DNA of 64,000 nucleotides from NCBI GenBank assembly GCA_020061465.1, contig JAGUYG010000027.1, positions 1-64,000 of the forward strand, read 5' to 3'. Positions within the stretch are counted from its first letter, which is position 1. The number at the start of each line of letters is the position of its first letter. The notes under the pieces were generated by a model that saw nothing but the letters and a program-made list of their open reading frames with translations, was not told where the DNA came from and ran no database searches. Position numbers and translations under genes: made by a program. Origin of the DNA: Ignavibacteriales bacterium. Its GTDB lineage: Bacteria; Bacteroidota; Ignavibacteria; Ignavibacteriales; Ignavibacteriaceae. Of this stretch, positions 41,341-62,937 are shown in pieces.

Positions 41341-41467
41341 TTTACTGCTCCTTTATTGATTTTTGATTTTGACCTTTTGACATGAGGTTGCTAATTTTGG
41401 TTTAAATATTTTTAATTAAACCACATTTGTCCGGCTTTTGTCAAACACTTTGAATAATACGGATATT

Positions 41468-42019
41468 ATGCCTGAACAGGATAACGATTTTGATCTAATA
41501 CAAAGGTTCCTTGCCGGAGATGAAGCAGCTTTCAATAAAATTGTTTCTAAGTACCAGCAAAAAATTTATTGGCATGCACGCAGAATGGTAGGAAATCATA
41601 TTGATGCCGACGAAATAGTTCAGGAGGTTTTACTTGTTCTTTATAAAAAATTGGCAAGCTTTAAATTTAAGTCTTCTTTATATACCTGGATTTATAAAAT
41701 TACCTCTACGCGAAGCTTAAATTTATTACGTCAAAGAAAAGTTAAAGAATTCTTTTCTTTTGAAGATTCGGAAGACCATGATATTTCAGGCGGGCAGGAT
41801 ATAGTTGCAACACTCGAGTCTAAAGAAAAAATTGAAAAGCTTGAGAGAGTTCTGAAAACACTGCCGGCAAAGCAGCGCGAAGTATTTATATTAAGACATT
41901 TTGATGAACTATCTTATGAGGAAATATCCGCAATTACCGGCAAAAGTGTCGGAGGCTTAAAAGCAAATTATTTTCATGCATTCAAAAAAATTAATGATCT
42001 GATGAATAACAATGACTAA
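41468..42019 (+). CDS. ECF RNA polymerase sigma factor
   Basis: This 183-residue extracytoplasmic-function sigma factor has region 2 with WHARRMVGNHIDADEIVQEV and region 4 with LPAKQREVFILRHFDELSYEE and a helix-turn-helix GKSVGGLKANYFHAFK. The frame can begin at a TTG at 41438; the ATG here is equally plausible, and neither has a strong ribosome site. It overlaps the anti-sigma gene by 8 bp. Confidence 0.92.
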   Translation: MPEQDNDFDLIQRFLAGDEAAFNKIVSKYQQKIYWHARRMVGNHIDADEIVQEVLLVLYKKLASFKFKSSLYTWIYKITSTRSLNLLRQRKVKEFFSFEDSEDHDISGGQDIVATLESKEKIEKLERVLKTLPAKQREVFILRHFDELSYEEISAITGKSVGGLKANYFHAFKKINDLMNNND

Positions 42020-42617
42020 TCAAGAAAAAATAATACGTTACTTGGACGGCACTTTGGACAGTACCGATATTGAAGCCGTCAAAGCAGAGATAGAGAAATC
42101 CACCGCTTTACGGAAAGAATATGAAAGACTGCTAAGTCTGAAAAAAAGATTAAAGAAGCTTTCCGAAGTAGAAGCTGATCCGGATTATTTTATTAATCTG
42201 CTGCCGAGATTCAGAGAAAGAATTAATCAGAAGAAAAAGAAATCCTTCTTACCTGCTTATGCTTTAGGTACCGTCCTTACTGCTCTAATTATATTTGCAG
42301 CAGTAGTTTTTCTTAATGATTCTGATTCTACACTTAATCTGATTGAAATTTCTGCACAGCTCGAAGATAATGAACTTGAATCGATTTTAGTTTATTATTC
42401 TAATGGCAATACTTATTCGATTGATGATGAGGAGGACGGCTCAGAACTATTTTTAAGTGAATTATTTAACGGAGACAATAATTCGATTGATATGGAGGCA
42501 TTAAAAACATTGTCTCTCAAATATGCAATTGATGATGTTCTGGAGGATGTAAGCGATCAGGAAGCTGACTTAATTGTAAATGAAATTTCAAACAAAAATA
42601 TTTTAATGAGTAATTAA
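42012..42617 (+). CDS. Membrane anti-sigma factor
   Basis: This 201-residue protein has a cytoplasmic N-terminal segment (1-75) with the pattern YLDGTLDSTDIEAVKAEI seen in anti-sigma factors, one membrane helix (about 78-101), and an acidic extracytoplasmic part. No zinc motif (HxxxCxxC) is present, so it is a zinc-free type. It overlaps the sigma gene by 8 bp and is followed 1 bp later by a Spy-like gene, forming a sensor-transducer unit. Confidence 0.82.
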   Translation: MTNQEKIIRYLDGTLDSTDIEAVKAEIEKSTALRKEYERLLSLKKRLKKLSEVEADPDYFINLLPRFRERINQKKKKSFLPAYALGTVLTALIIFAAVVFLNDSDSTLNLIEISAQLEDNELESILVYYSNGNTYSIDDEEDGSELFLSELFNGDNNSIDMEALKTLSLKYAIDDVLEDVSDQEADLIVNEISNKNILMSN

Positions 42618-42618
42618 T

Positions 42619-43092
42619 ATGAAACCGCTAATATATAGTGCTCTTATTCTGTTTCTCCTGCCGGCTCTGGTTTATGCACAAATGGAACATAGACGATTTG
42701 GAGGGGCAGTTGCAAAAATTGAGGAGTTAGAAAAGCTGAAATTAGTAGAAGCTTTAAATCTCGATGAAGAAACGACACTAAAATTTTTTTCCAGACGGGC
42801 AGAACACAGAGATAGAATGAAAAAACTGCTTCAAAGCTCGGATGACAAACTTGCCGATATGGAGGCTGCATTAAAACAAAGTTCGCAAAAGAAAGACGAA
42901 GAGTTCCAGAAGCTGCTTAAAGAATACTTGTCCATTGAGGAAAAAATTGCCCAAGAACGAACTCAATTTTTAACATCACTATCCGATATTCTGCCGAACG
43001 AAAAAATTATTACCTTCATTGTATTTGAAAAAAAATTCCGGGAAGAAGTTAGGGAAATATTGATGCGCGAAAGAGGAAAACGCAGAAGATAA
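42619..43092 (+). CDS. Periplasmic Spy/CnrX-like helical protein
   Basis: This 157-residue protein has a signal peptide (1-20, ending VYAQ), then long amphipathic helices with a VEALNLDEETTLKFFSRR start and highly charged KKLLQSSDDKL and EYLSIEEKIAQERTQF segments. Architecture and position behind an anti-sigma gene recall the metal-sensor CnrX or chaperone CpxP group. It could present a signal to the anti-sigma factor. The family relation is by pattern, not strong motifs. Confidence 0.65.
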   Translation: MKPLIYSALILFLLPALVYAQMEHRRFGGAVAKIEELEKLKLVEALNLDEETTLKFFSRRAEHRDRMKKLLQSSDDKLADMEAALKQSSQKKDEEFQKLLKEYLSIEEKIAQERTQFLTSLSDILPNEKIITFIVFEKKFREEVREILMRERGKRRR

Positions 43093-45151: not shown

Positions 45152-45999
45152 TTGATTATTAGCAATTACCATTCAGTATTGGATTCGCTTCAAGGAGTAA
45201 TAACTCACCGGTTTTCTTTTGCATTTCTGCTTGCATCTCTTATTGCTGTCTTCTCTCTATTCATAAAGGCACTTACAAAACGCGGTGCAGCAGCAACTTT
45301 TATTTTCGCAATAATAATTTTTGGTTTTGGTGGCTGGAAGTGGACAATTCCGATTGTTACTTTTTTTCTTTCATCAAGCTTGCTTACAAGAATACGAATG
45401 TTAAAGAATAAAGATGTTGAAACTTATTTCGAAAAAACCGGAGCCAGAGATGAATACCAGGTAATTGCGAACGGTGGTGTTTGTTTTCTGCTTGTTATAA
45501 TAAACGAATTTTTTCCTTCCGAACTTTTTTATTTAATGTTGTCTCAACTTTAGCAGTGGTTTGTGCGGATACATGGGCAACCGAGATTGGAACGATGGGA
45601 AAATTTAAAACCATAGACGTACTTTCATTACATCGGGTGGAACAAGGAACTTCCGGCGGAGTATCATTAGCCGGTTGTACCGGAACTATTCTTGGTGCTG
45701 CGGTAATTTCTTTTTCAGCGTTATATTGGATTACATTTAATCATTTATCATTCATACTTTTAATATTGATTGCAGGATTTGCCGGCAGCATTCTCGACAG
45801 CGTTTTAGGGACATCAATACAAACTCAATTTAGATGCAATGTTTGTAAAAAAAATGTTGAAGCAAAAATTCATTGCGGTAACCTTACAACAAAAATAAAA
45901 GGCATCAAATGGATAAGTAATGATGCTGTAAATTTCGCAGCGTCGCTCTGCGGTGCTATATTTGGAATAATCATTTTTGAAATTTTGAGTTTTAAATGA
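45152..45999 (+). pseudogene. DUF92 membrane protein, broken by a frameshift
   Basis: Two overlapping frames together make one DUF92 protein of about 280 residues. The first (45152-45553) carries the N-terminal membrane helices and GARDEYQVIANGGV. The second begins around the shift and carries VCADTWATEIGTMGKF, the family signature RVEQGTSGGVSLAG, and DSVLGTSIQTQFRCNVC with a late NDAVNF. A minus-one shift at the T6 run 45525-45530 (CTTTTTTAT) joins them smoothly. This may be a true pseudogene, a sequencing error in a homopolymer, or slippage. The start is TTG. The 3' end overlaps the TPR gene by 4 bp. Confidence 0.8.
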
Positions 46000-48971
46000 A
46001 ACGACTAATCTTTTTCATATCATTCTTTTTAAGTGTTACCGGATATCTCCCTGCTCAAACTGCTTCTGAAAAATTTAACGATGCCATGTTTGCATACAAT
46101 TCATCCGATTTTGTGAATGCAGTTAAATTGTTCGATGACTTCTTTTCTAACTATCAATTAAAAGATGAACTTTATGCTGCCGCGAAGTATTATTCTTCCG
46201 AATCATTAATTAATTCCGGTAATCTTGATGCTGCCGCTGCCGGGTTTGAATTTTTAGTTAATCATTTCAAATGGTCGAATTTTAGAGATAAATCTTTGTA
46301 TCGTCTCGGCTTGATTTATTTCGAACAAAAATTATTCAGTAAAAGCAGAGACAGATTGAAGCAATTATTAGATGAGTATCCTGAAAGCGAGCACATCGGT
46401 TCAGCACTTTATTGGATAGGGGAATCTTACTCTGCCCAAAATTTACTTGAAGAAGCAATTCAATTTTTAGAAGAAGCTGTTCAAAAGCGAAGTAATAATA
46501 AGTACATAGATTATACAATCTATACTCTCGCATCGGTTTATGAAAAAATTGGAGATTATGAGAAAGCCGTTAGCTACTATGATAGGCTGCTTTCTTATCA
46601 CCGCGAAAGCCCGTTAGCTGTGTCGGCACAAATACGAATCGGGATTTGCTACTTCAAGCTGAAAGATTATCATTCCTCCATACTTGAGCTAAAAAATCCG
46701 ATGCTTGCAAATCTTCCGTTAGATCAATATGCCGAAAGTCTTTACCTTCTTGCTAACTCACAGTACCGCGTTCAAGAATATGAGAATGCCGAAAAAACCT
46801 ATCTTGAAATTATTCAGAACTTTCCCTCATCGGATGTGATTAGAGAAGTTAAGTACGGATTGGGCTGGTCTTATTTTCAGCAAAAAAAATATAACGATGC
46901 TTATAGAATTTTTAATCTCTTATCTGAAGAAAGCGACAGCATAGGAATTAAATCGTTTTATTGGAAAGCTGAAGCTAAGAGATATGCGGGACAGGACAGT
47001 GAAGCATACAACATTTACAAAGAATTTATGGAAAGATATCCTAATCATGAACTTGTCAGTAATGTTCAATATCAGATGGGTGTTATATTCTTCAACTCAA
47101 AAAGATTTGAAGCATCGGAAAACTACTTGAAAGCTGCTGTGAATTCACCTGATTCTGACACTCGAAGCAGAGCCTACACGATGTTAGGCGAGATTGACTT
47201 GAACAGAAAAAAATTCGGTCCTGCAAGAATGAGTTTCGAAGCGGCTCTTAATGTCGCCGGTGTTCAGGATGATTTAGTTAATCGTGCAAGATTGGGATTC
47301 GGAATTTCCTTCTATTATCTTAAACGCTATAAAGATGCGATTACTCAATTGAGCTTGATTGAAAAAAGTGATCCGCATTTCGAAAGCGATAAGGTTAACT
47401 TCTTCCTTGCCGAAAGTTATTTTGCTTCAAAAAATTATTCCGATGCACTTAAGTATTATGATGGTGTCGATCCTTCAAATCCCGAACTTGCGAACTCAAG
47501 CTTATATGGCAAAGCATACTGTTATTTCAATATTCGTCAATATGAAAATGCGGCTTACCAATTTTCGGAATTCATAAAGAAATATCCTCGCGATACCAAA
47601 ATTGTAGATGTGCGATTGAGATTAGCCGACAGCTATTTCGGAAGCAAAAATTATACAGCCGCAAGCAACGTGTATAAAGATTTGTTCAAGACAGGTTTGG
47701 GAACTTCAAATAATTCTTATGTTCACTACCAATATGCTCAAGCTCTCTATAAAGCCGGTCAGATCAACGATGCGATAAATGAATTTAGAAATCTTCAAGA
47801 AAAATTTCCGTCTTCCGAATTTGCCGACCGTTCTCTTTTTGTTGTAAGTTGGATTTATTTTCAGCAGGGAAATTTTAGCGAGTCAATTTCTAATTATCAA
47901 AGTGTATTGAATTTATACCCGCGCTCTACACTTGGTTCTTTAATTTATTATTCAATTGGGGATGCATATTTTAATTTAGGCAGATATGATTCGGCAATAG
48001 TTAATTATCAACGTGTTGTAGTAAACTATCCTAATTCGAATAACGTTTTCGATGCGATCAATGGAATACAGTACAGCTACGTAGCATTAGGACAACCGGA
48101 AAAAGCTGTCTCTTTGATTGATGAATTTGTTATGAAGAATCCCGGATTAAGCTTTTCCGATCAGCTCTTTTTCAAAAAAGGAGAAATTTATTACAGCTTA
48201 AGAAACTATGAAGCTGCAAAAGCAAGTTACAAAGAATTTATTTCGAATTTTCGGAAGAGTAAATTTGTTCCGGATGCATATTATTGGATAGGGAAGAGCG
48301 CTCAAAATCTTGCACAGCTTGATGAAGCGCTTTTCAATTTTAATATGGTGTTTGATTCTTACAAAAGCAGCGAATCTGCGGTAGCGGCTATTATTGAAAT
48401 TTGCAACATCTATAATCAGCAAAAAAATTATGATGCGGCATTAGCTGCAATAAACAAAGGCGTAAGCAGTTTTTCCAATTCTAATAGAATACCGGAACTG
48501 CTCTTCATAAAAGCTAATACACTTGTAAACAAGGGAAATATTGCTGCTGCGTATGAAGTTTATGATGAAATCGTTCAGTATTATCGTGGTTCTATCTTTG
48601 CCGAAAAATCGAAATTTGAACTTGGATTGATCGAGCTTGCAACTAAACGTTATGAAAATGCTGAAATTTATTTTAAAGATCTCGCAGAGAAAAGATCGGA
48701 TGATCTGGGTGCAAAAGCGCAATTCCATTTAGGGCTTACTCTTTACGAACAAAAAAAACTTACCGAAGCTATTACAGCTTTCGTGAGAGTTAGAACAATT
48801 TTTTCATCATATACCGAATGGTTAGCCCGTTCTTATTTGAAGATGGGTGATATTTATGTTGAATTAAAAGATTATGAAAAAGCAAAGGAGATGTTTAGAA
48901 CCGTACTGAGCGTACATAGGGGAGACCCGCTCGGGATTGAAGCTCAAACTAAGCTGAGGACATTAAAATGA
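45996..48971 (+). CDS. Large exported TPR protein (about 20 repeats)
   Basis: This 991-residue protein has a signal peptide (1-20, ending LPAQ) and then an almost continuous array of TPR/BamD-like repeats, such as ALYWIGESYSAQNLLEEAI, LYLLANSQYRVQEYENAEKT and IYYSIGDAYFNLGRYDSAI. The repeat class resembles CpoB/YbgF and outer-membrane lipoprotein TPRs that bind peptidoglycan or barrel machinery, but here it is far longer. It overlaps both neighbours by 4 bp (ATGA) and opens an operon that ends with ExbB, ExbD and TonB. Confidence 0.85.
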   Translation: MKRLIFFISFFLSVTGYLPAQTASEKFNDAMFAYNSSDFVNAVKLFDDFFSNYQLKDELYAAAKYYSSESLINSGNLDAAAAGFEFLVNHFKWSNFRDKSLYRLGLIYFEQKLFSKSRDRLKQLLDEYPESEHIGSALYWIGESYSAQNLLEEAIQFLEEAVQKRSNNKYIDYTIYTLASVYEKIGDYEKAVSYYDRLLSYHRESPLAVSAQIRIGICYFKLKDYHSSILELKNPMLANLPLDQYAESLYLLANSQYRVQEYENAEKTYLEIIQNFPSSDVIREVKYGLGWSYFQQKKYNDAYRIFNLLSEESDSIGIKSFYWKAEAKRYAGQDSEAYNIYKEFMERYPNHELVSNVQYQMGVIFFNSKRFEASENYLKAAVNSPDSDTRSRAYTMLGEIDLNRKKFGPARMSFEAALNVAGVQDDLVNRARLGFGISFYYLKRYKDAITQLSLIEKSDPHFESDKVNFFLAESYFASKNYSDALKYYDGVDPSNPELANSSLYGKAYCYFNIRQYENAAYQFSEFIKKYPRDTKIVDVRLRLADSYFGSKNYTAASNVYKDLFKTGLGTSNNSYVHYQYAQALYKAGQINDAINEFRNLQEKFPSSEFADRSLFVVSWIYFQQGNFSESISNYQSVLNLYPRSTLGSLIYYSIGDAYFNLGRYDSAIVNYQRVVVNYPNSNNVFDAINGIQYSYVALGQPEKAVSLIDEFVMKNPGLSFSDQLFFKKGEIYYSLRNYEAAKASYKEFISNFRKSKFVPDAYYWIGKSAQNLAQLDEALFNFNMVFDSYKSSESAVAAIIEICNIYNQQKNYDAALAAINKGVSSFSNSNRIPELLFIKANTLVNKGNIAAAYEVYDEIVQYYRGSIFAEKSKFELGLIELATKRYENAEIYFKDLAEKRSDDLGAKAQFHLGLTLYEQKKLTEAITAFVRVRTIFSSYTEWLARSYLKMGDIYVELKDYEKAKEMFRTVLSVHRGDPLGIEAQTKLRTLK

Positions 48972-50611
48972 TCAAAAAGATTTTTATAACATTATTTTTA
49001 TTTTCATTAACCGCTGCGGCTCAAGATGACAGGCCTAACCCAAATGTAGAACTTCCGGATTTTGTTATTACCGGCACCGATGTGGTTTCGGTCCAAATAT
49101 CCGATAAATTAGCTCCGGAATTTGTCTCAACCATCTCAGAGGAATTCATCAAACCGCGCTTTACGCCGGAAGAACTTGGTTTGAGAGAACCTTCTCATCC
49201 CATGAAAAATGAAATTAAATTGTTTGACAATGCTGATTATTTAAACGGTTATCTTTCCGCCGGAGTCGGTTTGTATACGCTTCCTTCTGTTAAATTTCGT
49301 TATACATATACGGCAGATAATTTAATTCTTGAAGGAATAGGTTTAGGCATGAACAGACGTGCGTATGAATACGAAGATGCTTTTAAAAATAAAATTGAAA
49401 ATACAGATCGGTATTCAATAACGGGAGTTGCGAATTTATCTTACATCATAAGTAATGACGCCGATTTTTTGCCTTATACTAACTTCAAATTACATGGAGA
49501 TTACGGCTTATCTTCATATAAATTATTTGCCTTTCCCGATACAACTTTTAAAAGAAATTTAAATAAAGGGAATTTTTCATTTTCGATGAACAACCTTTCT
49601 AATAAATTACTCATATACGATTTTTCTGTCGGGGATAATTACACTTTTTTAAGCGACGAAAAATTTTCTGAAAATACGCTTCGAGCTAATGGTATGGCTA
49701 AGGTGCTGCTTAAGAATGTTACTTTTGGGGCTAAAATTTATTACCTCCGGCAATGGTTAGAAAGCCATATTGATTTTCCGGTAGCCGTAGAACAACACGG
49801 CGCCAGAGATTTTCTGAATATGCAAACAACAGTGGGACTTGAAGTTACAAAATTGGTAAGAGCATCCTTTGGGTTTAATTATGCTGCAACAAAAAGTCAA
49901 AACTATTTTTCTCCTTATCTTGCAGTAGCGCTGAAAGTTGATAAAAATTTATCCTTCTTCGGTGAATATGCGCCTGCTGCCGAATTCCTTACAGCCGGTG
50001 ATTTCTTAAGGGAAAATGAGTATTTAAATTATCGAAGTGTAATTAATCACTATTTCAAAAAATCTACCATTATGAACTTTGCTGTTAAGTATGAATACGA
50101 CAAGTACTTTCAAATTGACGGCGGATTGGGATACTTCTATGCTTCCAATTACCCTTATCATGACACAATTAGCTCCGGTAAATTTGACCTGAAAACCGCT
50201 GATGAAGTAAAGAGCTTCACTCCATATCTTAATTTATTATTTCATCCCGGTCCTTTCGGTATGTTTTACGGCACGATAAAATTAAACGATACCAGAACCG
50301 CAGACACGTTGAACCAAATTATTCCCTATCATCCTGCACTTCGTGCTGCTTTAGCGTATTCGTATAACTTCAATTTTGGTGTCCAAGCCGGAGTGAAATT
50401 GGATTATGCATCAAAGAGTTATGTAGATATAAACAACGAAAAGGAAATTGAACCCTTCATAGATTTTAGTCTCAATTTTTCATATAAATTTATGCCGAAT
50501 TTTTCATTAACTTTGCAGTTGAATAATTTGCTTAATAACAAGAATTATCTTTGGGATGGATACCGGGAAACTCCGGTTGATATTATCGCAGGCTTAAATT
50601 ATAGATGGTAA
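48968..50611 (+). CDS. Outer-membrane beta-barrel protein, plugless
   Basis: This 547-residue protein has a signal peptide (1-18, AAAQ) followed by a short, proline-rich periplasmic segment with PDFVITGTDVVSVQI. From about residue 85 on it has regular barrel strands, ending RETPVDIIAGLNYRW with a terminal aromatic residue. The strand pattern is TonB-receptor-like (LNNLLNNKNYLWDGY near the end), but there is no room for a plug domain. It is coupled to the TPR gene by a 4-bp overlap. A passive or TonB-linked pore is an inference. Confidence 0.72.
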   Translation: MIKKIFITLFLFSLTAAAQDDRPNPNVELPDFVITGTDVVSVQISDKLAPEFVSTISEEFIKPRFTPEELGLREPSHPMKNEIKLFDNADYLNGYLSAGVGLYTLPSVKFRYTYTADNLILEGIGLGMNRRAYEYEDAFKNKIENTDRYSITGVANLSYIISNDADFLPYTNFKLHGDYGLSSYKLFAFPDTTFKRNLNKGNFSFSMNNLSNKLLIYDFSVGDNYTFLSDEKFSENTLRANGMAKVLLKNVTFGAKIYYLRQWLESHIDFPVAVEQHGARDFLNMQTTVGLEVTKLVRASFGFNYAATKSQNYFSPYLAVALKVDKNLSFFGEYAPAAEFLTAGDFLRENEYLNYRSVINHYFKKSTIMNFAVKYEYDKYFQIDGGLGYFYASNYPYHDTISSGKFDLKTADEVKSFTPYLNLLFHPGPFGMFYGTIKLNDTRTADTLNQIIPYHPALRAALAYSYNFNFGVQAGVKLDYASKSYVDINNEKEIEPFIDFSLNFSYKFMPNFSLTLQLNNLLNNKNYLWDGYRETPVDIIAGLNYRW

Positions 50612-50639
50612 CCCCGTCTAATAAAGGATAATATAAAAA

Positions 50640-52502
50640 ATGACCAAAGCTGAGTTAGTTAGAAAAATTGCCAAGATTGTAGGTGTGTCCGATTCGGATG
50701 CAAAAATCTTTTTTGAGCTGTTTCTTACAAAGATTGCGCATATTGCTAATCCCGGAGACGCAATACATCTAAAGGGAGTAGGAATATTCGAAGTCAAAAA
50801 AGGAAAGATTAACAAGCGGAGGCAGGAATATCCCGATGAAATAAACGAAGTAATTTATACCGAAATTGTTCAATACTCATCCGAACCAAATATGTCCGAA
50901 GAAGATAAATTTTTATTTAACATTCCCGCCGTGCGTACCGAAAATTATTACCCGATCGATTCACATTTTAGCTTGAGTTTTGGCAAGCCGGTTATTCCGG
51001 TTGGAAGTGCTAAAAGTACCGAATATTTCATTCCGCCTACCGGAAATGAACTCTTAAAATTAATTGATACTAAAGTAGATAAGTTAATCACTAACGCGAC
51101 TGTGCTTCAAAATTATTCTAAAGGAAATGAAATATTAGTGTTCGATTCTTTCCGTAAAGACGAAAACCAACTTGAATTTATGTTGGATAAAAAATCCACA
51201 AAGAGAAAATCAGTGCCTTCAAGCAAAGGGGTTATTATTAAGTCTGCCGGAGATGAAATAAAGGAACAGCGAAAAGTTGAAAATTTGCCGTGGGATTTTG
51301 GCGAAGAATTATCTAAACAAATTGCCGAAGAAGCACTTTTAGACATCGAAAGAGAGGAAAATGAGATTACAGAAGATGAAGACTCGTATTCCTCATTCGC
51401 ATGGGATTTTGGTAAGTTTTCCGAGGGTGAAACCGAAGATGTAGAATCTTCCCAATTGGGTAAAGCAATAAAAGAAGCTGAAAAATCGCTGCAGGAGATC
51501 GATGAAGAAAAGTATATTCCGGAACCAAAAAAGAAAACCGATGCAGAGGAAGATTTTATTGAAGAAAAAGAGAGTGAAACTAATTTTAAGCGGGTTAAAT
51601 CTATCACTTCTGAATTTATTGCACCACTCGAAGATGAACAGACTGAGGAGGAAGAATTACAAAATTGGGATTTCGATTCAGGCGAGATTGAGGAAACATT
51701 AGAAAAAGATTTGGAAGCTGAAATTACTCCAACAAGTTTCGAAGATGATATTGAAAAGAAAACAGCTTTAAGCAAGGATTTCAGTTTGTCCGGTGAATTT
51801 GAATCTGAAGAAGAAAAGCAAAAAGAATCTGTTGAAGAAATAATTGAACGCGAATTTAGAAAACGTACACAAACACTTGAAGAAAGTTACAGAAAAAGGA
51901 GTTCGGCAGCCCGGTTTTTTGTTGTATTAGGGACAGTTCTGGTTATTGTAATCGGATGGCTCCTTTACAACTGGTTGAATACCATGCTAAGTAAAAAAGA
52001 ACCGGAGAGCAGTTCTCTCAAAGCGAGTATTTTACGAACGCCGGTGGTTATTAATAGAAATTATGAAATTCCTGTTACCTATCCATATTTGCCTAACATG
52101 GGTAATTTAATTACTTATGATCCAATCGATCCGGCTGTCTTCAAAACAAAAATTACTGCTGTTGATACAACCGCTCTAAGCCAGGGACCCGATCAGAAGA
52201 AGGAAACGGTACGTAAGGTACCTGAACCAAAGGAAACTAAACCTATTGTAACTGAGTTAAAACCAGCGGTTGATTTGGAAAGAGTAAAAGATAATATTTA
52301 TAAATCGGGCGATACGTTTGTAGTGCAGGTATCCTCATGGCAGTCTCAGGCAAAAGCAGCGGCTGAAGTGGAAAGATTAAAAAGGCAGGGATTAAGTGCT
52401 TTCATTCAACGTGCTGAAATTCCTGGCAGAGGGACCTGGTATAGAGTCAGGGTCGGTGGTTTTAGCAGTGTTGCAGATGCAGAAAAATTCGTAAACAAAT
52501 AG
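50640..52502 (+). CDS. HU-domain, single-pass, SPOR-domain fusion protein
   Basis: This 620-residue protein combines three unusual parts. Residues 1-65 are an HU/IHF-like domain (MTKAELVRKIAKIVGVS, LKGVGIFEVKKGK). Residues about 200-420 are a highly acidic linker holding three WDF motifs (at 218, 255 and 343). A single membrane helix (425-446) is followed by a proline-rich periplasmic stretch and a SPOR domain (556-620; FVVQVSSWQSQAKAAAEVE). SPOR domains bind peptidoglycan strands lacking stem peptides. The topology would place HU in the cytoplasm and SPOR in the periplasm. It lies between the barrel gene and exbB. Confidence 0.85.
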   Translation: MTKAELVRKIAKIVGVSDSDAKIFFELFLTKIAHIANPGDAIHLKGVGIFEVKKGKINKRRQEYPDEINEVIYTEIVQYSSEPNMSEEDKFLFNIPAVRTENYYPIDSHFSLSFGKPVIPVGSAKSTEYFIPPTGNELLKLIDTKVDKLITNATVLQNYSKGNEILVFDSFRKDENQLEFMLDKKSTKRKSVPSSKGVIIKSAGDEIKEQRKVENLPWDFGEELSKQIAEEALLDIEREENEITEDEDSYSSFAWDFGKFSEGETEDVESSQLGKAIKEAEKSLQEIDEEKYIPEPKKKTDAEEDFIEEKESETNFKRVKSITSEFIAPLEDEQTEEEELQNWDFDSGEIEETLEKDLEAEITPTSFEDDIEKKTALSKDFSLSGEFESEEEKQKESVEEIIEREFRKRTQTLEESYRKRSSAARFFVVLGTVLVIVIGWLLYNWLNTMLSKKEPESSSLKASILRTPVVINRNYEIPVTYPYLPNMGNLITYDPIDPAVFKTKITAVDTTALSQGPDQKKETVRKVPEPKETKPIVTELKPAVDLERVKDNIYKSGDTFVVQVSSWQSQAKAAAEVERLKRQGLSAFIQRAEIPGRGTWYRVRVGGFSSVADAEKFVNK

Positions 52503-52531
52503 CTGTTGACAAAACAAAATAAAGGAATAAT

Positions 52532-53188
52532 ATGAACCTGTTCTCAATTTTCATTAAAGGCGGCTTTATGATGTATCCTATCTTGTTGTGCTCGATAATC
52601 GGGATTGCCGTTGTAATCGATAGATATATTGTATTGAGAAAAGCAAAAATAAACGTTCCGGCTTTTATGGTCAGAATAAGAGGATTAATTAAAAAGAAAG
52701 ATATTTCGGGAGCTATCAGCTACTGTATGGAAGAGAAATCTCCTGTAGCTAATATCATTCGTAAAGGTTTAAAAAAATTCCGCCTCGGACATGAACGTGT
52801 TAAAGAAGCGGTTGAAAATGCCGGAAAACAAGAAATAAGTAAACTTGAAAGAGGTCTTTCCGTTTTAGCTACAGTTTCGGGTATTGCTCCGTTGTTAGGT
52901 TTTTTAGGTACCGTTACAGGAATGATTACTGCATTTATGACGATTGAAGACTTGCAGGGTGCCGCAAATCCAAGCGATCTTGCCGGCGGAATTTGGGAAG
53001 CGCTTACTACTACAGCATTTGGATTGATAGTGGGAATTCCGGCGCTGGCATTTTACAACTACTTCCTCAACTACGTTAAAAAATTAGTCGGCGATATGGA
53101 AATTGTTGCCAATGATGTTGTTGACATTATTCAGGATTCTTCCGGCGGATTAGTTGAAGTAGATGAAGAAATAGAAATAGATATTTAA
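52532..53188 (+). CDS. MotA/TolQ/ExbB proton channel
   Basis: This 218-residue inner-membrane protein has three membrane helices and the family signature ATVSGIAPLLGFLGTVTGM, plus GGIWEALTTTAFGLIVGIPAL. It forms the pentameric channel that converts proton-motive force into mechanical pull with ExbD/TolR. The exbD-like gene follows 9 bp later. ExbB versus TolQ cannot be told apart by motif. Confidence 0.93.
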   Translation: MNLFSIFIKGGFMMYPILLCSIIGIAVVIDRYIVLRKAKINVPAFMVRIRGLIKKKDISGAISYCMEEKSPVANIIRKGLKKFRLGHERVKEAVENAGKQEISKLERGLSVLATVSGIAPLLGFLGTVTGMITAFMTIEDLQGAANPSDLAGGIWEALTTTAFGLIVGIPALAFYNYFLNYVKKLVGDMEIVANDVVDIIQDSSGGLVEVDEEIEIDI

Positions 53189-53197
53189 AGGCTTACT

Positions 53198-53602
53198 ATG
53201 AAATTTCAAATATCAAGAGAACCGCTTAGCATTTTTAGTTTTTCTTCTTTAACAGATATTGTTCTGCTGCTTGTGATATTTTTCTTACTCACTTCACAAT
53301 TTGTAATTCAGACGGGAGTGAAAGTTAAATTACCCGGTTCCAAAACAAACGAACAAGCAGTACCTTCAAGATTAATTGTTACACTAACTGCCGGCGGCGG
53401 TGTTTATGTAGGAAACGAGGAAGTGGGGTTGGATGAACTTCCTGCAAAAATAAGTATCCTCAGAGGTGCCGGTGCCGATGATAATTTAATCATTCGCGCC
53501 GACAGAATCGTTGCAGTTGAGCTTGTAATCAAAGTGATTGATGCGGCAAGAGCATCAGGAATTGATAAGTTTACCATTGAAACCGAAAAAGAAAAATTGT
53601 AA
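53198..53602 (+). CDS. ExbD/TolR stator protein
   Basis: This 134-residue protein has one membrane helix (about 19-35) carrying the essential aspartate, Asp20, in LTDIVLLLVIFF, and a periplasmic beta domain with VKVKLPGSKT and DNLIIRADRIV. It pairs with the upstream ExbB-like channel. A TonB-like gene follows 24 bp later, completing an energising complex. Confidence 0.93.
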   Translation: MKFQISREPLSIFSFSSLTDIVLLLVIFFLLTSQFVIQTGVKVKLPGSKTNEQAVPSRLIVTLTAGGGVYVGNEEVGLDELPAKISILRGAGADDNLIIRADRIVAVELVIKVIDAARASGIDKFTIETEKEKL

Positions 53603-53626
53603 ACGATTATTATTACAGAGAGAACT

Positions 53627-54325
53627 ATGACTTATTCATCGATTCGACAGTTATCAATTTCAGCGTCTATTCTGCTTCATGGATTGATATTGATTCTACT
53701 AATATTTATTAAAATTTCATTCGAATATCCTCCAAGAGATTATGTAGAGCTCTCCTTCGGCACTTCGGGTGAAACCGGTTCAGCAGGTGCAATCGGTACA
53801 AGAATAGAGAGAGTAGAGGAATTAGCAGAAACGCAGGAGAAAAATCAAACAATCGACAAAAGTCATGAAGTTAAAGAAGTAGAGCTTCCGGTTGCAAAAC
53901 ATACTTCCGAAGAAAACGTAATAAAGCCGGCTGATAAACAAAAAGAAAAAGCTACTACTTCAGCAACTGAAACTAAAGAAACCACTAATTCAAAAGTGAC
54001 TACTCCCGGTCAAGGCAACAAAGCGGCAGGGGACGGCAGTTTTGGATATGATATCGATTGGGGCGGCAAAGGAATTCGAAAAATTTATAGTTACATTATA
54101 CCCGCTTATCCCGAAGGTGTTTACAAAGAAATTGATATCCGCTTGAGGTTTACAATTCTTCCTGACGGAACGGTAGGAACTATCATTCCTCTAATCAAAG
54201 CCGATACAAAACTTGAAAACGCAGCAATAAATTCATTAAGGCAATGGCGGTTTGAACCGCTAGATAATTCTCAGAGGAGGGAAGAACAAGCGGCAATTAT
54301 TGTTTTTCCGTACCGGCTTCAGTAG
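53627..54325 (+). CDS. TonB/TolA-type energy transducer
   Basis: This 232-residue protein has one N-terminal membrane helix (about 10-30), an alanine/lysine/glutamate-rich periplasmic arm (70-135), and a TonB C-terminal domain with the DIRLRFTILPDGTVG and AINSLRQWRFEPL segments. It should transmit energy from ExbB/ExbD to an outer-membrane protein, possibly the barrel encoded upstream. The 3' end overlaps the converging small membrane-protein gene by 29 bp. Confidence 0.9.
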   Translation: MTYSSIRQLSISASILLHGLILILLIFIKISFEYPPRDYVELSFGTSGETGSAGAIGTRIERVEELAETQEKNQTIDKSHEVKEVELPVAKHTSEENVIKPADKQKEKATTSATETKETTNSKVTTPGQGNKAAGDGSFGYDIDWGGKGIRKIYSYIIPAYPEGVYKEIDIRLRFTILPDGTVGTIIPLIKADTKLENAAINSLRQWRFEPLDNSQRREEQAAIIVFPYRLQ

Positions 54326-54596
54326 GTTCTTCTTTATAATACATACGGTAAAAGAAATATTCGGCTATCGATAAAAGCGCAAGTGAAAAAGTATCTCTGT
54401 CAAAGTAAATTCCAAATCCTTCAGGCGCCATTAAATATTTTGCAATCATTCCTGTTATAGACCAGCCTACAGCAAATAACAATCCTATCAAACCAAGATT
54501 TAATAAACCGGATACTAAATTTTCTTCCTGCCATTTTTTTGTAAAGATAATCAAGGCAAATAACAGATGACCGAAAAAGATTACCGCAATTAACAT
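54297..54596 (-). CDS. Small hypothetical membrane protein
   Basis: This 99-residue protein has three hydrophobic segments (about 1-17, 28-50, 65-85). I do not recognise the family. It is the last of four closely spaced minus-strand genes for membrane or secreted proteins and overlaps the tonB-like gene tail-to-tail by 29 bp. Confidence 0.6.
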   Translation of the reverse strand: MLIAVIFFGHLLFALIIFTKKWQEENLVSGLLNLGLIGLLFAVGWSITGMIAKYLMAPEGFGIYFDRDTFSLALLSIAEYFFYRMYYKEEPTEAGTEKQ

Positions 54597-54609
54597 GTTT
54601 ATCGAGAGG

Positions 54610-55113
54610 TTATGACGAAATTCTCTTATTCATTATTACCATTCCTAACAAGGCTCCTAAAATGCCGAAAATGGTGTTTATAATTCCATTGCTGAAAAGT
54701 ATAAGGAAAGCATACATAGGGGAAAAGCCCGTCGTTCTGATATCTGCTTCAATTTGTTTAAGTAACTTCATTGTATCGTCAATCAGAGGACCCAAATTAA
54801 AGTCTCTCATCATTGATTCTGTGTATGGTAGTGCCTCGATAAATTCATTGCTTTTTGTAATTAATGTAATAATTAGATCGATACCTGTTGCAAATATAGC
54901 CGCAAAGATGCCTGTCATTAATCCGAGGAAAAAAGCTCTTTCAATGGGAATTTTTTCAAAGAATCCGATAGTTCTTTGATACAAGTAAACCGCTAAGATG
55001 CCCGCACCCGGAATGATTAAACAGCAGGTAACACTTTTCATTCCAGGTACTGTTGCAAAAACTGCAGCACCGAAACCGCAAACCAAAGGCGAGAGAATTT
55101 TATTTTTATCCAT
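54610..55113 (-). CDS. DUF4199-like membrane protein
   Basis: This 167-residue protein has four membrane helices. Pattern and size fit the DUF4199 group of Bacteroidota, with a long hydrophilic loop (about 85-130) before the last helix and a glycine-rich ILGALLGMVIMNKR end. Function is unknown. It overlaps the DUF2085 gene by 8 bp upstream and is 13 bp before the small membrane gene. Confidence 0.65.
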   Translation of the reverse strand: MDKNKILSPLVCGFGAAVFATVPGMKSVTCCLIIPGAGILAVYLYQRTIGFFEKIPIERAFFLGLMTGIFAAIFATGIDLIITLITKSNEFIEALPYTESMMRDFNLGPLIDDTMKLLKQIEADIRTTGFSPMYAFLILFSNGIINTIFGILGALLGMVIMNKRISS

Positions 55114-55594
55114 GCAGCTTAGCTGATTTTGTTAAAAGAAAATTTTCTATCTCATTTGAAATATAAAGAAATACAATCGAACCGAAAATTATTCCGGTGG
55201 TGAGTGCAATACTTTTTTGATAAGCATAGACACCTATTGTTGAGAGAAGTACATCTGCTAGTAACAGCAGCGAGGCAATTAACAGTGGTGTTAGTTTATT
55301 CATTGCCGTTCTAAATTGAAATATAAGAAGGATAGATGCACTCAATGCGCCGATGTATATACCGCTGCACCGCGCACAAATTAATAATGCTGCGCCATTA
55401 ATGTGGATCGATTTTAATTCCGATTGATGACAAACCTTAGAATACAATAAATTAAGGAATGGATTAATTACACTTAAAGAGAGGGGATCATCCAAAATCG
55501 CAGGCAGTAGAAACCCGGCACACCAAAGTAAGGCGGAGAAAAATAAAATTACTCTAACACTCATGGAACGGGATAAATTTAATCTCTTCCCCAT
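55106..55594 (-). CDS. DUF2085 membrane protein
   Basis: This 162-residue protein with four membrane helices carries the DUF2085 signature: VCHQSELKSIHING and LICARCSGIYIGAL, with paired cysteines and a histidine that could bind a metal or heme. The role is not established. It is coupled to the DUF4199-like gene by an 8-bp overlap. Confidence 0.88.
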   Translation of the reverse strand: MGKRLNLSRSMSVRVILFFSALLWCAGFLLPAILDDPLSLSVINPFLNLLYSKVCHQSELKSIHINGAALLICARCSGIYIGALSASILLIFQFRTAMNKLTPLLIASLLLLADVLLSTIGVYAYQKSIALTTGIIFGSIVFLYISNEIENFLLTKSAKLHG

Positions 55595-55613
55595 ATAAAT
55601 TATTAGTTCCTAT

Positions 55614-56483
55614 TTATGGATGGTAACTAAAAACAGAAATTTCGTTTTGAGTTAAGACGTATAATTTGCCTTTGTATAAAAGAGAATTTATTAGAGATTT
55701 ATTTAGATCGTATCCGATTAAACTAACAGCATTAAATTGAGCAGAAGGAACGTTCAGATTTAAAATGAATATTTCATCATCAGTATTAGTCGTTAAAATA
55801 TTATGAACAATATTAATATTCTTAAGTTTTTTTTCTGCATCGATTATTTGCAGTCCGTTTCCGTATTGATCGAATACAATGATTTTACCGTCATCTAGTA
55901 CATAAATATTATTATCCTGAGAAATCCGCATCTTCAAAGGATGTGACAATACAAACGAACCTGCATCGATGCTTCCGAATGTGGAGTTAAAATTTCCAAA
56001 CAGATCAAATTTTAATATCCGTGTATTTTCCGAATCGAGAATAAAAAGATCTCCCATATTTGAAGTAGCACAAGCTAACGGATAACCAAATTTCAGATCA
56101 GGGTTATCCGCATTACGAGTATAAAGCTGCGAAATAAAATTTAAATCTTTATCGAATCTTTGAATGCGGTGATTGTTTTTATCGGCGACGTAAATATTTA
56201 GAGTTGTAGCAAAAATATCTACCGGTTCATCAAAGGCACCTCTATCCCAACCATAACCGCCGGTTTCTTTCAACACATTTCCTAATGTATCTAGTTTATA
56301 TATTTCATTAGTACCGCGGTCAGCTGCATAAATTACACCCGCCGGATTGACATGAAAAGCAGCGGCATCTTTAAAATTTCCGAAGGAATATTCATAAATA
56401 TATGTTTGTGAGAGCAGCTCGACAAAGCTTGTGAAGATTAAAAAGACTATTAGTTTGGTTATCATAATTGTTTTATTCAACAA
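55614..56483 (-). CDS. Secreted NHL-repeat propeller protein
   Basis: This 289-residue protein has a signal peptide (1-26) followed by NHL-type propeller repeats: DRGTNEIYKLDTLGN, VADKNNHRIQRFDKDLN and ILDSENTRILKFDLFGN. It should form a periplasmic or surface beta-propeller for protein or ligand binding. It heads the four-gene minus-strand group, 19 bp before the DUF2085 gene. Confidence 0.85.
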   Translation of the reverse strand: MLNKTIMITKLIVFLIFTSFVELLSQTYIYEYSFGNFKDAAAFHVNPAGVIYAADRGTNEIYKLDTLGNVLKETGGYGWDRGAFDEPVDIFATTLNIYVADKNNHRIQRFDKDLNFISQLYTRNADNPDLKFGYPLACATSNMGDLFILDSENTRILKFDLFGNFNSTFGSIDAGSFVLSHPLKMRISQDNNIYVLDDGKIIVFDQYGNGLQIIDAEKKLKNINIVHNILTTNTDDEIFILNLNVPSAQFNAVSLIGYDLNKSLINSLLYKGKLYVLTQNEISVFSYHP

Positions 56484-58917: not shown

Positions 58918-61900
58918 ATGAAAAGCAAAATCTCTATAATCATTCTTTTAATTTGCATGCCGATCTTTTCCCGGAATGACCTACGAATTATTTCATCCGA
59001 CAAAAATTCTATTCTCATAGAGTATACGCTTTCGTTATTGGATTCTTCCAAAGTAAGTTTGAACGGGAGCGAATATTTAAACATTGTCCTCCAAAACGGA
59101 TATTTGTCATCAGAATCCGGTTCAGGCATGCCTTCAATTCCGGAAAGAAGATTCAATATCGGGATTCCTTCCGAGTACGGCAATACAATCGAAGTACTCA
59201 ACTATAATGTTTCAGAAAAAACCGGCAAGTTGATTCCTCTTCCAAAGCTCGTTAAGCAAAATGGTTTACCTGTACCTGAGTATTCCATTGATGAAAATTA
59301 TTTCAAGTATACACCACATAATAGCTTAGTTACTTTCGGTGAATCGGGTTTAGTTCGTGATTTGTTAGTTCAAACTATCCGGATTTTCCCGGTTGAATTC
59401 GATCCGTTAACTAATACTATAAAGCTTTATACTAAGATTCTCTTCAGAATAAATTATTCCAGCCAACAGCAAATATCGAGTGAAGCCGCTGATGAATTTA
59501 TAGCGGAAGCCGTATTGAATTATCAAACAGCTAAAAATTGGAAGATCGAAAGCCGAAAAAATTCTTTGGATAAAATTCAAACTAACAGTGTGCTGTCAAG
59601 CGGCAAGTGGGTAAGATTTGAGGCACCCGAAGAAGGAATTTATAGAATTACCAGGTCAATGCTGCCTTCATTCGGAATAGATCCAAATACCGTGGATCCT
59701 CGCACGATAAAAATTTATAACAACGGCGGCAAAATGCTTCCCGAGAAAGTTGTACCGCCAAGACCGGTTGACCTAATTGAAAATACAATTCTTATAGTCG
59801 GAGAAGATGACGGTAAGTTTGATGAGAATGATTATATCCTATTCTACGGGAGAGGAAATCATTTTTGGGATTATGATACTTCAGCAAAAAAAATCAGCAG
59901 ATATTTTCATCTCTATTCGAATGAGAATTATTACTGGATTACTTCGGGAGGTGAACAAGGAAGGAGGATTCAAAATAAGCCGGGGCTTAACCAAGCTTCA
60001 TATTACCTGCAGCCTTCTACAAAGGCATTTGCAGCATGGGAAGAGGATAAGATTAACTTAGGGAAAACAGGAAGAATATTTTTAGGGCAAGATTTTACTC
60101 CTTCGAAAAATTCTAACTCTTTCCCGCCGATTAAACTTGACGGAAGGATTGAATCTTCACCCATACGTTATCGAATAAGATTTATTAATGGATCGGCAGA
60201 CCCTTTTACTTTGCAGGTAACTGAAAATACTCTTCAAATTCATTCACAATTACTTCTTGGCTATGGCGGTTCCAGTTATATAACGGGAATAGAGCATACA
60301 ATTGAAACATCCTTCAACGGAGTTTTGCCGGAAAACAGAAGCGTAGCGGGTATGAAAATCACTACAACATCTATTACTAATGCTGGTTACCTTGATTTTT
60401 ATGAATTGTATTATGAAAAAGAATTAAAGGCATTTAATGATTTCTTGCTTTTCTTCTCAAAAGATACTTCGGCAGTTCTTCAATATAATTTAAATGGATT
60501 TTCATCTACCAACATTATGGTTTTCGATGTAAGCGATTTTTCCGAAGTTAAATTAATTTCAAATCCAATAATGCACAGTGGAGGAGAGTACCGATTTCAA
60601 ATTCAAGAGAGTGAAAATAAAATTTCAAAATACATCGGGATAGCAAATAATAATTTTAAATCTCCATCAAATCCCGTTGAAGTTCCTAATTCGAATCTGA
60701 GAGGAATAACGGATGGAGCTAAGTTTATAATTATTACTCATAAAAATTTCAAAGATGCGGCAATACGTTTAAAGAACTACCGCCAGAATGAGTCGAAAGT
60801 TACTTTATCAACTATTGTGGTTGACGTAGATGAAATCTTCAATGAGTTTGGGGGAGGACTTAGGGATGTAACTGCCATGAGAGATTTTATCAAATATGCC
60901 TATGATACCTGGACTATTAAGCCGCAATACGTACTGTTGTTCGGTGTAGGCACCTATGATTTTAAAAATGTTGAAGGATATGGTACTAACTTCATACCAA
61001 CGTGGCAAACAGAGGAGTATTTAATTTTAGCTTCAATAAACAGAGGATCATTTACTTCAGACGATTTCTTTGTGAAAGTAAGCGGGGATGATCCTATGGT
61101 TGACCTTGCTATAGGTAGGATTACAGCCCAATCTGCAGCCGAAGCAAACACAGCGGTAGATAAAATAATTTATTACGAGCAAGAAAGTGACATGGGTGTC
61201 TGGCGAAACTTAATAACTCTTGTTTCAGATGACGGTGTAACATCACAAACTCAATTTGAAGGAGCTGAGCATACTCGTCCTAACGAAAATTTGGCAAACT
61301 CAATTATTCCGAAATCATTCGATTTCAATAAAATTTATTTGGCGGCTTACCCGGTCGAATTAACAAGCGCTGGCAGAAGGAAACCTGCTGTTAACAGGGC
61401 AATTATCGATGCATTTAACAACGGCACATTGGTGATGAATTTTATCGGGCATGGCAGCCCTGAATTGTGGACACATGAAGTTGTATATGAGAAAAGCGTG
61501 ACAGTTCCTCAGTTAAAAAATAATCGCTACTTGTTCTTAACTGCTGCTACCTGTGACTTTGGTTATTTTGATATCCCGAATTTTCAAAGTGCAAATGATG
61601 TAATGCTCCTAAAAAAAGATGGTGGAACAATTGCGTCATTCACTTCATCTCGATTAGTTTATTCAACTCAAAATCAGCTGTTAATGTATCAGTTCTTTGC
61701 AGATTTATTTAATACTCCTAGAGATACTTTAAACCTCTCTATACCTATAGGTAAGGCAAGCTTCCTAACAAAGCAATCGTTTTATTCTGTCAACGATCAA
61801 AAGTATTTTATCTTTGGCGATCCGACGCTACGCTTACTTATTCCCCAGTATACCGCTTCTATAGATTCAATAAACGGGCAATATGTTACAGTCGGTTCGG

Positions 61901-62937
61901 CAGGCGGAAATTCTTCTTCAGATATCCAATTACAGGCTTTAAGCACTGTTAGAATTAACGGCGTTATTAAAGATACAGATAATAACGTTTGGGAAGATTT
62001 TTCGGGTGAGGGAATTTTAGCAGTTTTCGATTCCGAAAGAACGGTATTACTGACTGAAATAAATAATTACCCGATGACTATTCAAGGCGGAGTGATTTTT
62101 AGAGGAAGAATTTCTGTAATCAACGGAAAATTCAATGCCGATTTTGTAGTACCGAAAGATATTTCTTATGAAAACAAAAACGGAAAAATCATAATTTATT
62201 TTTTCAATCAAGAGTCGGATGGATTAGGTTTTACCTCAAACATAATCATTGGCGGAACAGACTCAACTGCTGTTGATGATGGCAAAGGACCTGAAATAGA
62301 AATTTATTTTGATGACGCTTCTTTTGAAAATGCTTATTTAGTTGCACCCAATACTACTCTTATTGCAAAGCTGTATGATCAAACCGGATTGAATACAACC
62401 GGCACAGGCATCGGACACAAACTTGAAGGATTAATGAATGATCAAATAAACAATCCCATCGATTTTACAAACTACTTTATTGGCGATATGGATGCCGGAG
62501 GAAAATCTGGAAGGATTGAATATAAATTTAACAGACTTGAAGAAAGGGACCATAAAATCGAAATTAAAGCCTGGGATGTTTTTAATAATTTTTCGAAAGA
62601 AACTGCTTATTTTACGGTAGTAAGCGGAGATGATTTAGTAATAAGAGATATTTACAATTATCCTAATCCTTTTTCTAATTCGACCACATTTACATTCCAG
62701 CAAAATTTAAACAGGGTAATTGACGTTCAAATAAAAATTTATACTGTTGCCGGACGCTTAATTAAAGAAATTGAAAAAAACAGCATTAGCGATAAATTTG
62801 TAAAGATAGATTGGGACGGCAGAGATGCCGACGGAAATCAGATTGCAAACGGTGCTTATCTTTACAAGATCATCGTAAAAACTCTTGATGGCGAATACAA
62901 TCGCAGTGTGCTTGGTAAGCTTGCTGTGGTAAAATGA
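58918..62937 (+). CDS. porU: Type IX secretion system sortase PorU (C25 peptidase)
   Basis: This 1339-residue secreted protein of the gingipain-like C25 family removes T9SS sorting domains and attaches cargo at the cell surface. A signal peptide (about 1-19) is followed by a long beta-rich N-terminal part. The C25 domain at about 625-975 has His845 in MNFIGHGSPELW and Cys879 in TAATCDFGYF, the normal spacing of the catalytic pair. The C-terminal 100 residues (YNYPNPFSNSTTFTFQQN, DWDGRDADGNQIANGAY) form an FlgD-like sorting-type beta-sandwich. porV follows after 93 bp. Confidence 0.93.
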   Translation: MKSKISIIILLICMPIFSRNDLRIISSDKNSILIEYTLSLLDSSKVSLNGSEYLNIVLQNGYLSSESGSGMPSIPERRFNIGIPSEYGNTIEVLNYNVSEKTGKLIPLPKLVKQNGLPVPEYSIDENYFKYTPHNSLVTFGESGLVRDLLVQTIRIFPVEFDPLTNTIKLYTKILFRINYSSQQQISSEAADEFIAEAVLNYQTAKNWKIESRKNSLDKIQTNSVLSSGKWVRFEAPEEGIYRITRSMLPSFGIDPNTVDPRTIKIYNNGGKMLPEKVVPPRPVDLIENTILIVGEDDGKFDENDYILFYGRGNHFWDYDTSAKKISRYFHLYSNENYYWITSGGEQGRRIQNKPGLNQASYYLQPSTKAFAAWEEDKINLGKTGRIFLGQDFTPSKNSNSFPPIKLDGRIESSPIRYRIRFINGSADPFTLQVTENTLQIHSQLLLGYGGSSYITGIEHTIETSFNGVLPENRSVAGMKITTTSITNAGYLDFYELYYEKELKAFNDFLLFFSKDTSAVLQYNLNGFSSTNIMVFDVSDFSEVKLISNPIMHSGGEYRFQIQESENKISKYIGIANNNFKSPSNPVEVPNSNLRGITDGAKFIIITHKNFKDAAIRLKNYRQNESKVTLSTIVVDVDEIFNEFGGGLRDVTAMRDFIKYAYDTWTIKPQYVLLFGVGTYDFKNVEGYGTNFIPTWQTEEYLILASINRGSFTSDDFFVKVSGDDPMVDLAIGRITAQSAAEANTAVDKIIYYEQESDMGVWRNLITLVSDDGVTSQTQFEGAEHTRPNENLANSIIPKSFDFNKIYLAAYPVELTSAGRRKPAVNRAIIDAFNNGTLVMNFIGHGSPELWTHEVVYEKSVTVPQLKNNRYLFLTAATCDFGYFDIPNFQSANDVMLLKKDGGTIASFTSSRLVYSTQNQLLMYQFFADLFNTPRDTLNLSIPIGKASFLTKQSFYSVNDQKYFIFGDPTLRLLIPQYTASIDSINGQYVTVGSAGGNSSSDIQLQALSTVRINGVIKDTDNNVWEDFSGEGILAVFDSERTVLLTEINNYPMTIQGGVIFRGRISVINGKFNADFVVPKDISYENKNGKIIIYFFNQESDGLGFTSNIIIGGTDSTAVDDGKGPEIEIYFDDASFENAYLVAPNTTLIAKLYDQTGLNTTGTGIGHKLEGLMNDQINNPIDFTNYFIGDMDAGGKSGRIEYKFNRLEERDHKIEIKAWDVFNNFSKETAYFTVVSGDDLVIRDIYNYPNPFSNSTTFTFQQNLNRVIDVQIKIYTVAGRLIKEIEKNSISDKFVKIDWDGRDADGNQIANGAYLYKIIVKTLDGEYNRSVLGKLAVVK

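Follow-up and report, generated by a model that had tools for sequence, protein, structure and literature searches.

What might a plugless outer-membrane barrel do when it is encoded with a giant periplasmic TPR protein, a SPOR-domain protein and a full ExbB-ExbD-TonB motor? The locus that raises this question lies on the plus strand at positions 45996-54325 of the window, by which we mean the whole 64,000-nucleotide stretch of DNA analyzed here, from contig 27 of a 4.2-Mb genome. In the gut and in the environment, Bacteroidota rank among the most abundant bacteria. Recent papers have asked what powers the constriction of their outer membrane in the absence of Tol-Pal (PMC12204202) and by which route hundreds of lipoproteins reach their cell surface (PMC12578637). 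An operon with its own motor, a plugless barrel with a TonB-box-like motif and a putatively septum-directed wall binder offers a concrete gene set for both questions. Our literature searches found no paper describing the six-gene operon and, as far as these searches show, the set is widespread but undescribed as a system.

Gene content of the operon and its surroundings

The first-pass annotation had described six genes on one strand with 4-bp overlaps or short gaps, and both the open reading frames, which were found at the same coordinates, and the Pfam families agree with this description. The first gene (45996-48971) encodes a 991-aa protein with a signal peptide and matches to many TPR Pfam models, as expected for the exported TPR protein proposed earlier, and a lipobox was not seen in it. 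Its length is steady in all relatives of the window's taxonomic order (about 990 aa), with 34-60% identity within the order in our alignment. It overlaps by 4 bp the gene of the 547-aa barrel (48968-50611), which is followed by the gene of the 620-aa HU-TM-SPOR protein (50640-52502). The last three genes, all on the same strand, encode an ExbB/TolQ-type channel protein (52532-53188; MotA_ExbB Pfam match, 1.4e-35), an ExbD/TolR-type stator (53198-53602; ExbD Pfam match, 3.8e-24) and a TonB protein (53627-54325) consisting of an N-terminal transmembrane anchor with an S..H motif, a linker and a TonB_C domain whose match is just above the cut-off (2e-5). These three matches, together with the transmembrane aspartate D20 of ExbD, present in all 46 relatives, bear out the earlier claim of a full motor. 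ExbB is also strongly conserved among relatives, its best NCBIfam model being tolQ at 115 bits, below the cut-off of 221, and the S..H motif near the N-terminal anchor was found in 47 of 56 TonB proteins. Because the source genome holds three ExbB-family loci and 34 plug matches, the latter from ordinary TonB-dependent transporters (TBDTs), the motor of the operon is one of several.

Several neighbouring genes were also recorded. A DUF92 gene (45152-45999) shares a 4-bp overlap with the TPR gene and is split into two overlapping frames (133 and 172 aa), a frameshift or a sequence error; it is intact in relatives (262-537 aa), and it lies upstream of the TPR gene in about half of the order loci. 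Four genes on the opposite strand (54297-56483, minus strand; 99, 167, 162 and 289 aa) adjoin the operon, and this block is kept in 36-40 order loci and not across the phylum. Upstream, at 41438-43092, genes for an ECF-like sigma factor, an anti-sigma-like protein and a CpxP/LTxxQ-like protein recur in 17-24 order loci, and envelope-stress regulation of the region is possible. The large exported protein encoded at 58918-62937 is, by its appearance, presumably a candidate C25/PorU-type type IX secretion protease.

Conservation of the gene order

Loci of the order were collected by searching relatives with the HU-SPOR protein and then reading the neighbourhoods, which gave 41 loci, the window included. 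The barrel was present in 40 of them, with the TPR gene directly upstream in 39 (36 with the identical 4-bp overlap) and the HU/SPOR gene downstream in all 40. ExbB came next in 31 order loci, and TonB lay directly 3' of the HU/SPOR gene in 8 loci without ExbB-ExbD (L034, L037, L038, L047, L049, L057, L059 and L072); counting 6 loci from elsewhere, TonB still adjoins the SPOR gene in 14 loci where ExbB-ExbD is absent. A check of 31 loci, almost all belonging to other families and classes, showed the TPR-barrel pair in 27 and the HU/SPOR gene in 21, often followed by the full motor. One distant barrel match (L128) turned out to be an ordinary plugged receptor and was removed. The arrangement is not due to chance, as the same succession of genes is seen in 39 of the 40 order loci with a barrel and in many further families of the phylum.

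Wider searches extended this pattern. A barrel profile matched 176 of 296 genomes of the phylum, the weaker matches being partly generic TBDT barrels; as few candidates per genome were scored, its absence counts were not taken as true absences, and the test was repeated for Chlorobi (see below). The TPR protein of about 1000 aa was detected in 49 of 60 Bacteroidales genomes. With a genome-contig scan by a narrow TPR alignment, whose reach was Bacteroidales only, TPR and barrel genes were found at loci of Bacteroides xylanisolvens XB1A, Tannerella forsythia ATCC 43037, Bacteroides ihuae and others, and the pair also occurs in Parabacteroides. The synteny check thus found the order kept across the window's taxonomic order and the pair recurring through the phylum. 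What had been presented as a candidate oddity stands as a conserved operon, but its scope had been drawn too narrowly for a phylum-wide set; neither this spread nor the TonB-box-like N-terminus of the barrel had been noticed.

The HU-CCDC81 gene stood alone elsewhere in the genome in those Bacteroidales loci that were read in detail, and neither the SPOR gene nor the TonB gene adjoins the TPR-barrel pair in Bacteroides and Flavobacteria-like genomes. Because the SPOR gene is apart from the pair in Bacteroidales and linked to it elsewhere, the TPR-barrel pair is the core of the system, and its union with SPOR and Ton in one operon is probably the ancestral state.

The barrel, its N-terminal motif and the SPOR protein

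The barrel matched PF00593 only weakly (E 0.003, under the cut-off) and had no Pfam plug match (PF07715). An AlphaFold2 model from a 70-sequence alignment (pLDDT 88) showed 22 strands beginning at residue 94, with residues from about 18 to 90 mostly at low confidence, and the best 50 PDB fold matches listed were all TonB-dependent transporters, with BtuB at the top (E 4e-17) and FrpB, FepA and Cir among the top folds. These results uphold the description of a barrel without a plug, and it is plugless and of constant length across the sampled phylum. In addition, neighbourhood clustering showed no recurring plug or substrate gene beside it.

Directly after the signal peptide, barrel residues 27-36 (49046-49075, plus strand) form the motif VELPDFVITG, which is near-invariant among order barrels. 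Related N-terminal strand motifs were found in other lineages (IDLPEFVITG, LPDLAPREVEIRG, EEIVVTTAYKP and RTVVVEQEYNPDI), and plugged TBDTs of the same genome carry the TonB boxes VDLPAVVVQG, VELDAVVVEG and YNLGEVIVTA before their plugs. Using a PSSM built from 25 hand-aligned boxes, with the N-termini of 913 other proteins from the compared loci as background, the window motif scored above 98.7% of the background, and in almost every order member the motif outscored all other 10-mers of the full barrel. The PSSM is Ignavibacterial, and the Bacteroidia and Rhodothermia-like forms of the motif score poorly with it. Our main new finding is that the barrel N-terminus keeps a TonB-box-like motif though the plug has been lost. 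From its sequence we infer that TonB may bind VELPDFVITG, in which case the barrel would represent a TonB target other than a gated importer.

The HU-TM-SPOR protein has an HU-like N-terminus (about residues 1-80; PF00216, 1.6e-7), an acidic linker, one transmembrane segment (about 425-447) and a C-terminal SPOR domain (557-620; PF05036, 2.1e-12), with weak NCBIfam matches to FtsN and an N-terminal structure model that weakly resembles HU. It had been put forward as new, a view that no longer holds, as its relatives (L114, L116, L121, L125 and others) match the HU-CCDC81_bac_1/2 families (PF18174/PF18175), some of them below cut-off. The HU-CCDC81 family, with SPOR fusions in Bacteroidetes, was reportedly described by Burroughs et al. 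in 2017. No paper came up in the literature that deals with HU-CCDC81 together with SPOR or Bacteroidetes, nor was any description found of an operon link between HU-CCDC81-SPOR proteins and a TPR-barrel pair and Ton. In one relative (L114:7878-8819), the HU protein adjoining the barrel has two HU domains and no SPOR match.

The first-pass annotation had also placed one end of the system on the nucleoid side. The segment after the G-F turn, corresponding to the DNA-binding arm, has a net charge of -4 to +5 in the family, near 0 on average, and the protein of the window has its own basic hairpin at residues 53-61. Several lineages (L104, L108, L110 and L120) have SPOR without a detectable HU domain, and in L137 (10866-12895) the protein is naturally split, its HU and SPOR halves being encoded by separate genes with a 4-bp overlap. 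Because the arm is not basic across the family, HU is missing in some lineages and the halves are split in L137, DNA binding and a nucleoid link are doubtful, and the HU domain was set aside as evidence of nucleoid coupling.

Possible roles and comparison with known systems

We tentatively favor, at slightly less than even confidence, a Ton-driven system that is directed to the septum and exerts force on the outer membrane or tethers it; it would be functionally analogous to Tol-Pal without being a member of it. In this proposal, a dedicated Ton system would pull on the outer membrane instead of importing a nutrient: the proton motive force would drive ExbB-ExbD, which would move TonB, and TonB would grip the TonB box at the unattached N-terminal end of the barrel. 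As there is no plug that could unfold, the force would be transmitted to the barrel and, through it, to the giant TPR protein attached as a scaffold, and the outer membrane would be drawn inward or held to the wall. The SPOR protein, a predicted type II membrane protein like FtsN and DedD, would position the motor at denuded septal glycan, so that the outer membrane would follow the constricting wall and the job of Tol-Pal in Proteobacteria would be done with Ton parts. The kept gene order, the adjoining of TonB and the SPOR gene even without ExbB-ExbD, the likeness of the motif to TBDT boxes and the clear SPOR match all argue for this reading. Against it count the poor scores of the motif in Bacteroidia and Rhodothermia-like members, the separation of SPOR and TonB from the pair in Bacteroides and Flavobacteria-like genomes, and the proposal of PorE for outer-membrane-wall tethering in Bacteroidetes in place of Tol-Pal (PMC12204202).

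The distribution of Tol-Pal also bears on this role. TolB_N (PF04052) had no match in the source genome and no OmpA-like gene, as would be expected for Pal, was found among the six operon genes or their recurring neighbours, in line with the earlier statement that TolB and Pal are missing; the likeness to Tol-Pal noted there is reasonable as a functional analogy. TolB_N was found in 19 of the 296 phylum-sample genomes, 10 of them from one family which, given the chlorosome protein CsmA in 15 of 15 tested members, corresponds to Chlorobi; it was detected in some, not all, of the Chlorobi sampled. A search of 16 Chlorobi genomes found no full-length barrel, with six controls all positive (E 1e-63 or better). 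A recent study reports no identifiable tol-pal loci in Bacteroidetes and expects further outer-membrane-stabilising systems there (PMC12204202). This pattern favors a Tol-Pal-like role, and it rests mainly on the one lineage, Chlorobi. According to PMC12611786, Chlorobi also lack SusCD and SprA, so the distribution fits other roles as well and is not decisive alone.

The main rival, which we consider rather unlikely, is an energised export or insertion channel of the outer membrane, in which the TPR protein would collect a periplasmic substrate (a surface lipoprotein, polysaccharide or lipid), the 22-strand barrel would be the conduit and TonB would gate or drive it. TPR-barrel pairs serve export in BcsC, PgaA, PelB, AlgK-AlgE and Slam, which the operon recalls together with a weak match of its TPR protein to PF24575 (TPR_Slam), and the inseparable TPR-barrel core and the TonB-box-like motif fit this reading too. 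Furthermore, PMC12578637 presents a Bacteroidota lipoprotein flippase as not known and expected to be essential. However, the neighbourhoods showed no recurring gene for a synthase, a lipoprotein or a substrate, it is not obvious what a SPOR domain would do in export, and SusD was found in none of 11 genomes sampled from the window's family, 10 of which have the barrel, so there is no tie between the barrel and SusCD surface lipoproteins. A more specific version, a TonB-energised outward translocation machine of plugless barrel and giant TPR protein placed by SPOR at growth sites, for example a surface-lipoprotein flippase, has only a small likelihood.

An aid to outer-membrane protein assembly, with a BamD-like TPR partner acting with its own barrel and energised by Ton, seems improbable: the TPR protein does resemble BamD/YfiO models (TIGR03302) and the pair is phylum-wide and single-copy, but such TPR similarity is generic, and the Bacteroidota BAM papers, in the parts consulted, name BamA, BamD, BamG, BamH and accessory subunits, none of them described as a giant TPR protein or a plugless TBDT-like barrel. 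A conventional TonB-dependent receptor, with its plug either lost or supplied by a gene at another site, is highly improbable; its TBDT fold and the many plugs in the genome would allow it, whereas the constant plugless length and a dedicated operon with no plug or substrate gene adjoining do not suggest a receptor, and a separate plug, the objection raised in the first-pass annotation, is unlikely because no plug gene recurs in the neighbourhoods. Hardly any weight can be given to a type IX secretion or gliding accessory, since the partial likeness of the TPR protein to SprE/PorW (NF052312, 134 bits) is under the curated cut-off of 250 and the pair occurs in B. xylanisolvens (L239), a gut Bacteroides, and gut Bacteroides are not known to have type IX secretion.

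Compared with known systems, the export pairs, like the operon, join an array of periplasmic TPRs to a barrel in the outer membrane, but their barrels have 16-18 or 14 strands, they lack a TonB box and ExbBD-TonB, and they are encoded with a synthase or substrate. HU-CCDC81-SPOR proteins (PF18174, PF18175) share N-terminal HU domain(s), one transmembrane segment and a C-terminal SPOR domain, whereas the Ignavibacterial member matches only the general HU model. PorE, which has been put forward as covering the tasks of Tol-Pal in this phylum, differs in being one lipoprotein that combines TPR, propeller, carboxypeptidase-like and OmpA-like domains, without its own motor or barrel. Tol-Pal shares the ExbB/TolQ-ExbD/TolR motor, a periplasmic transducer, a TPR protein and a link between wall and outer membrane; the operon, in contrast, has a TonB_C transducer in place of TolA, a transmembrane barrel as its outer-membrane partner, a TPR protein of about 990 aa (about 260 in CpoB) and an additional SPOR protein. 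Having no TolB and no Pal, it is not a Tol-Pal member. Ton systems with TBDTs such as BtuB and FepA share the motor, TonB, a 22-strand barrel and a TonB-box-like N-terminus, but the operon lacks substrate genes, adds a co-operonic giant TPR protein and SPOR protein and, its barrel having no plug, is not a standard TBDT system. The six-gene set is best called a variant of the Ton/Tol motor family.
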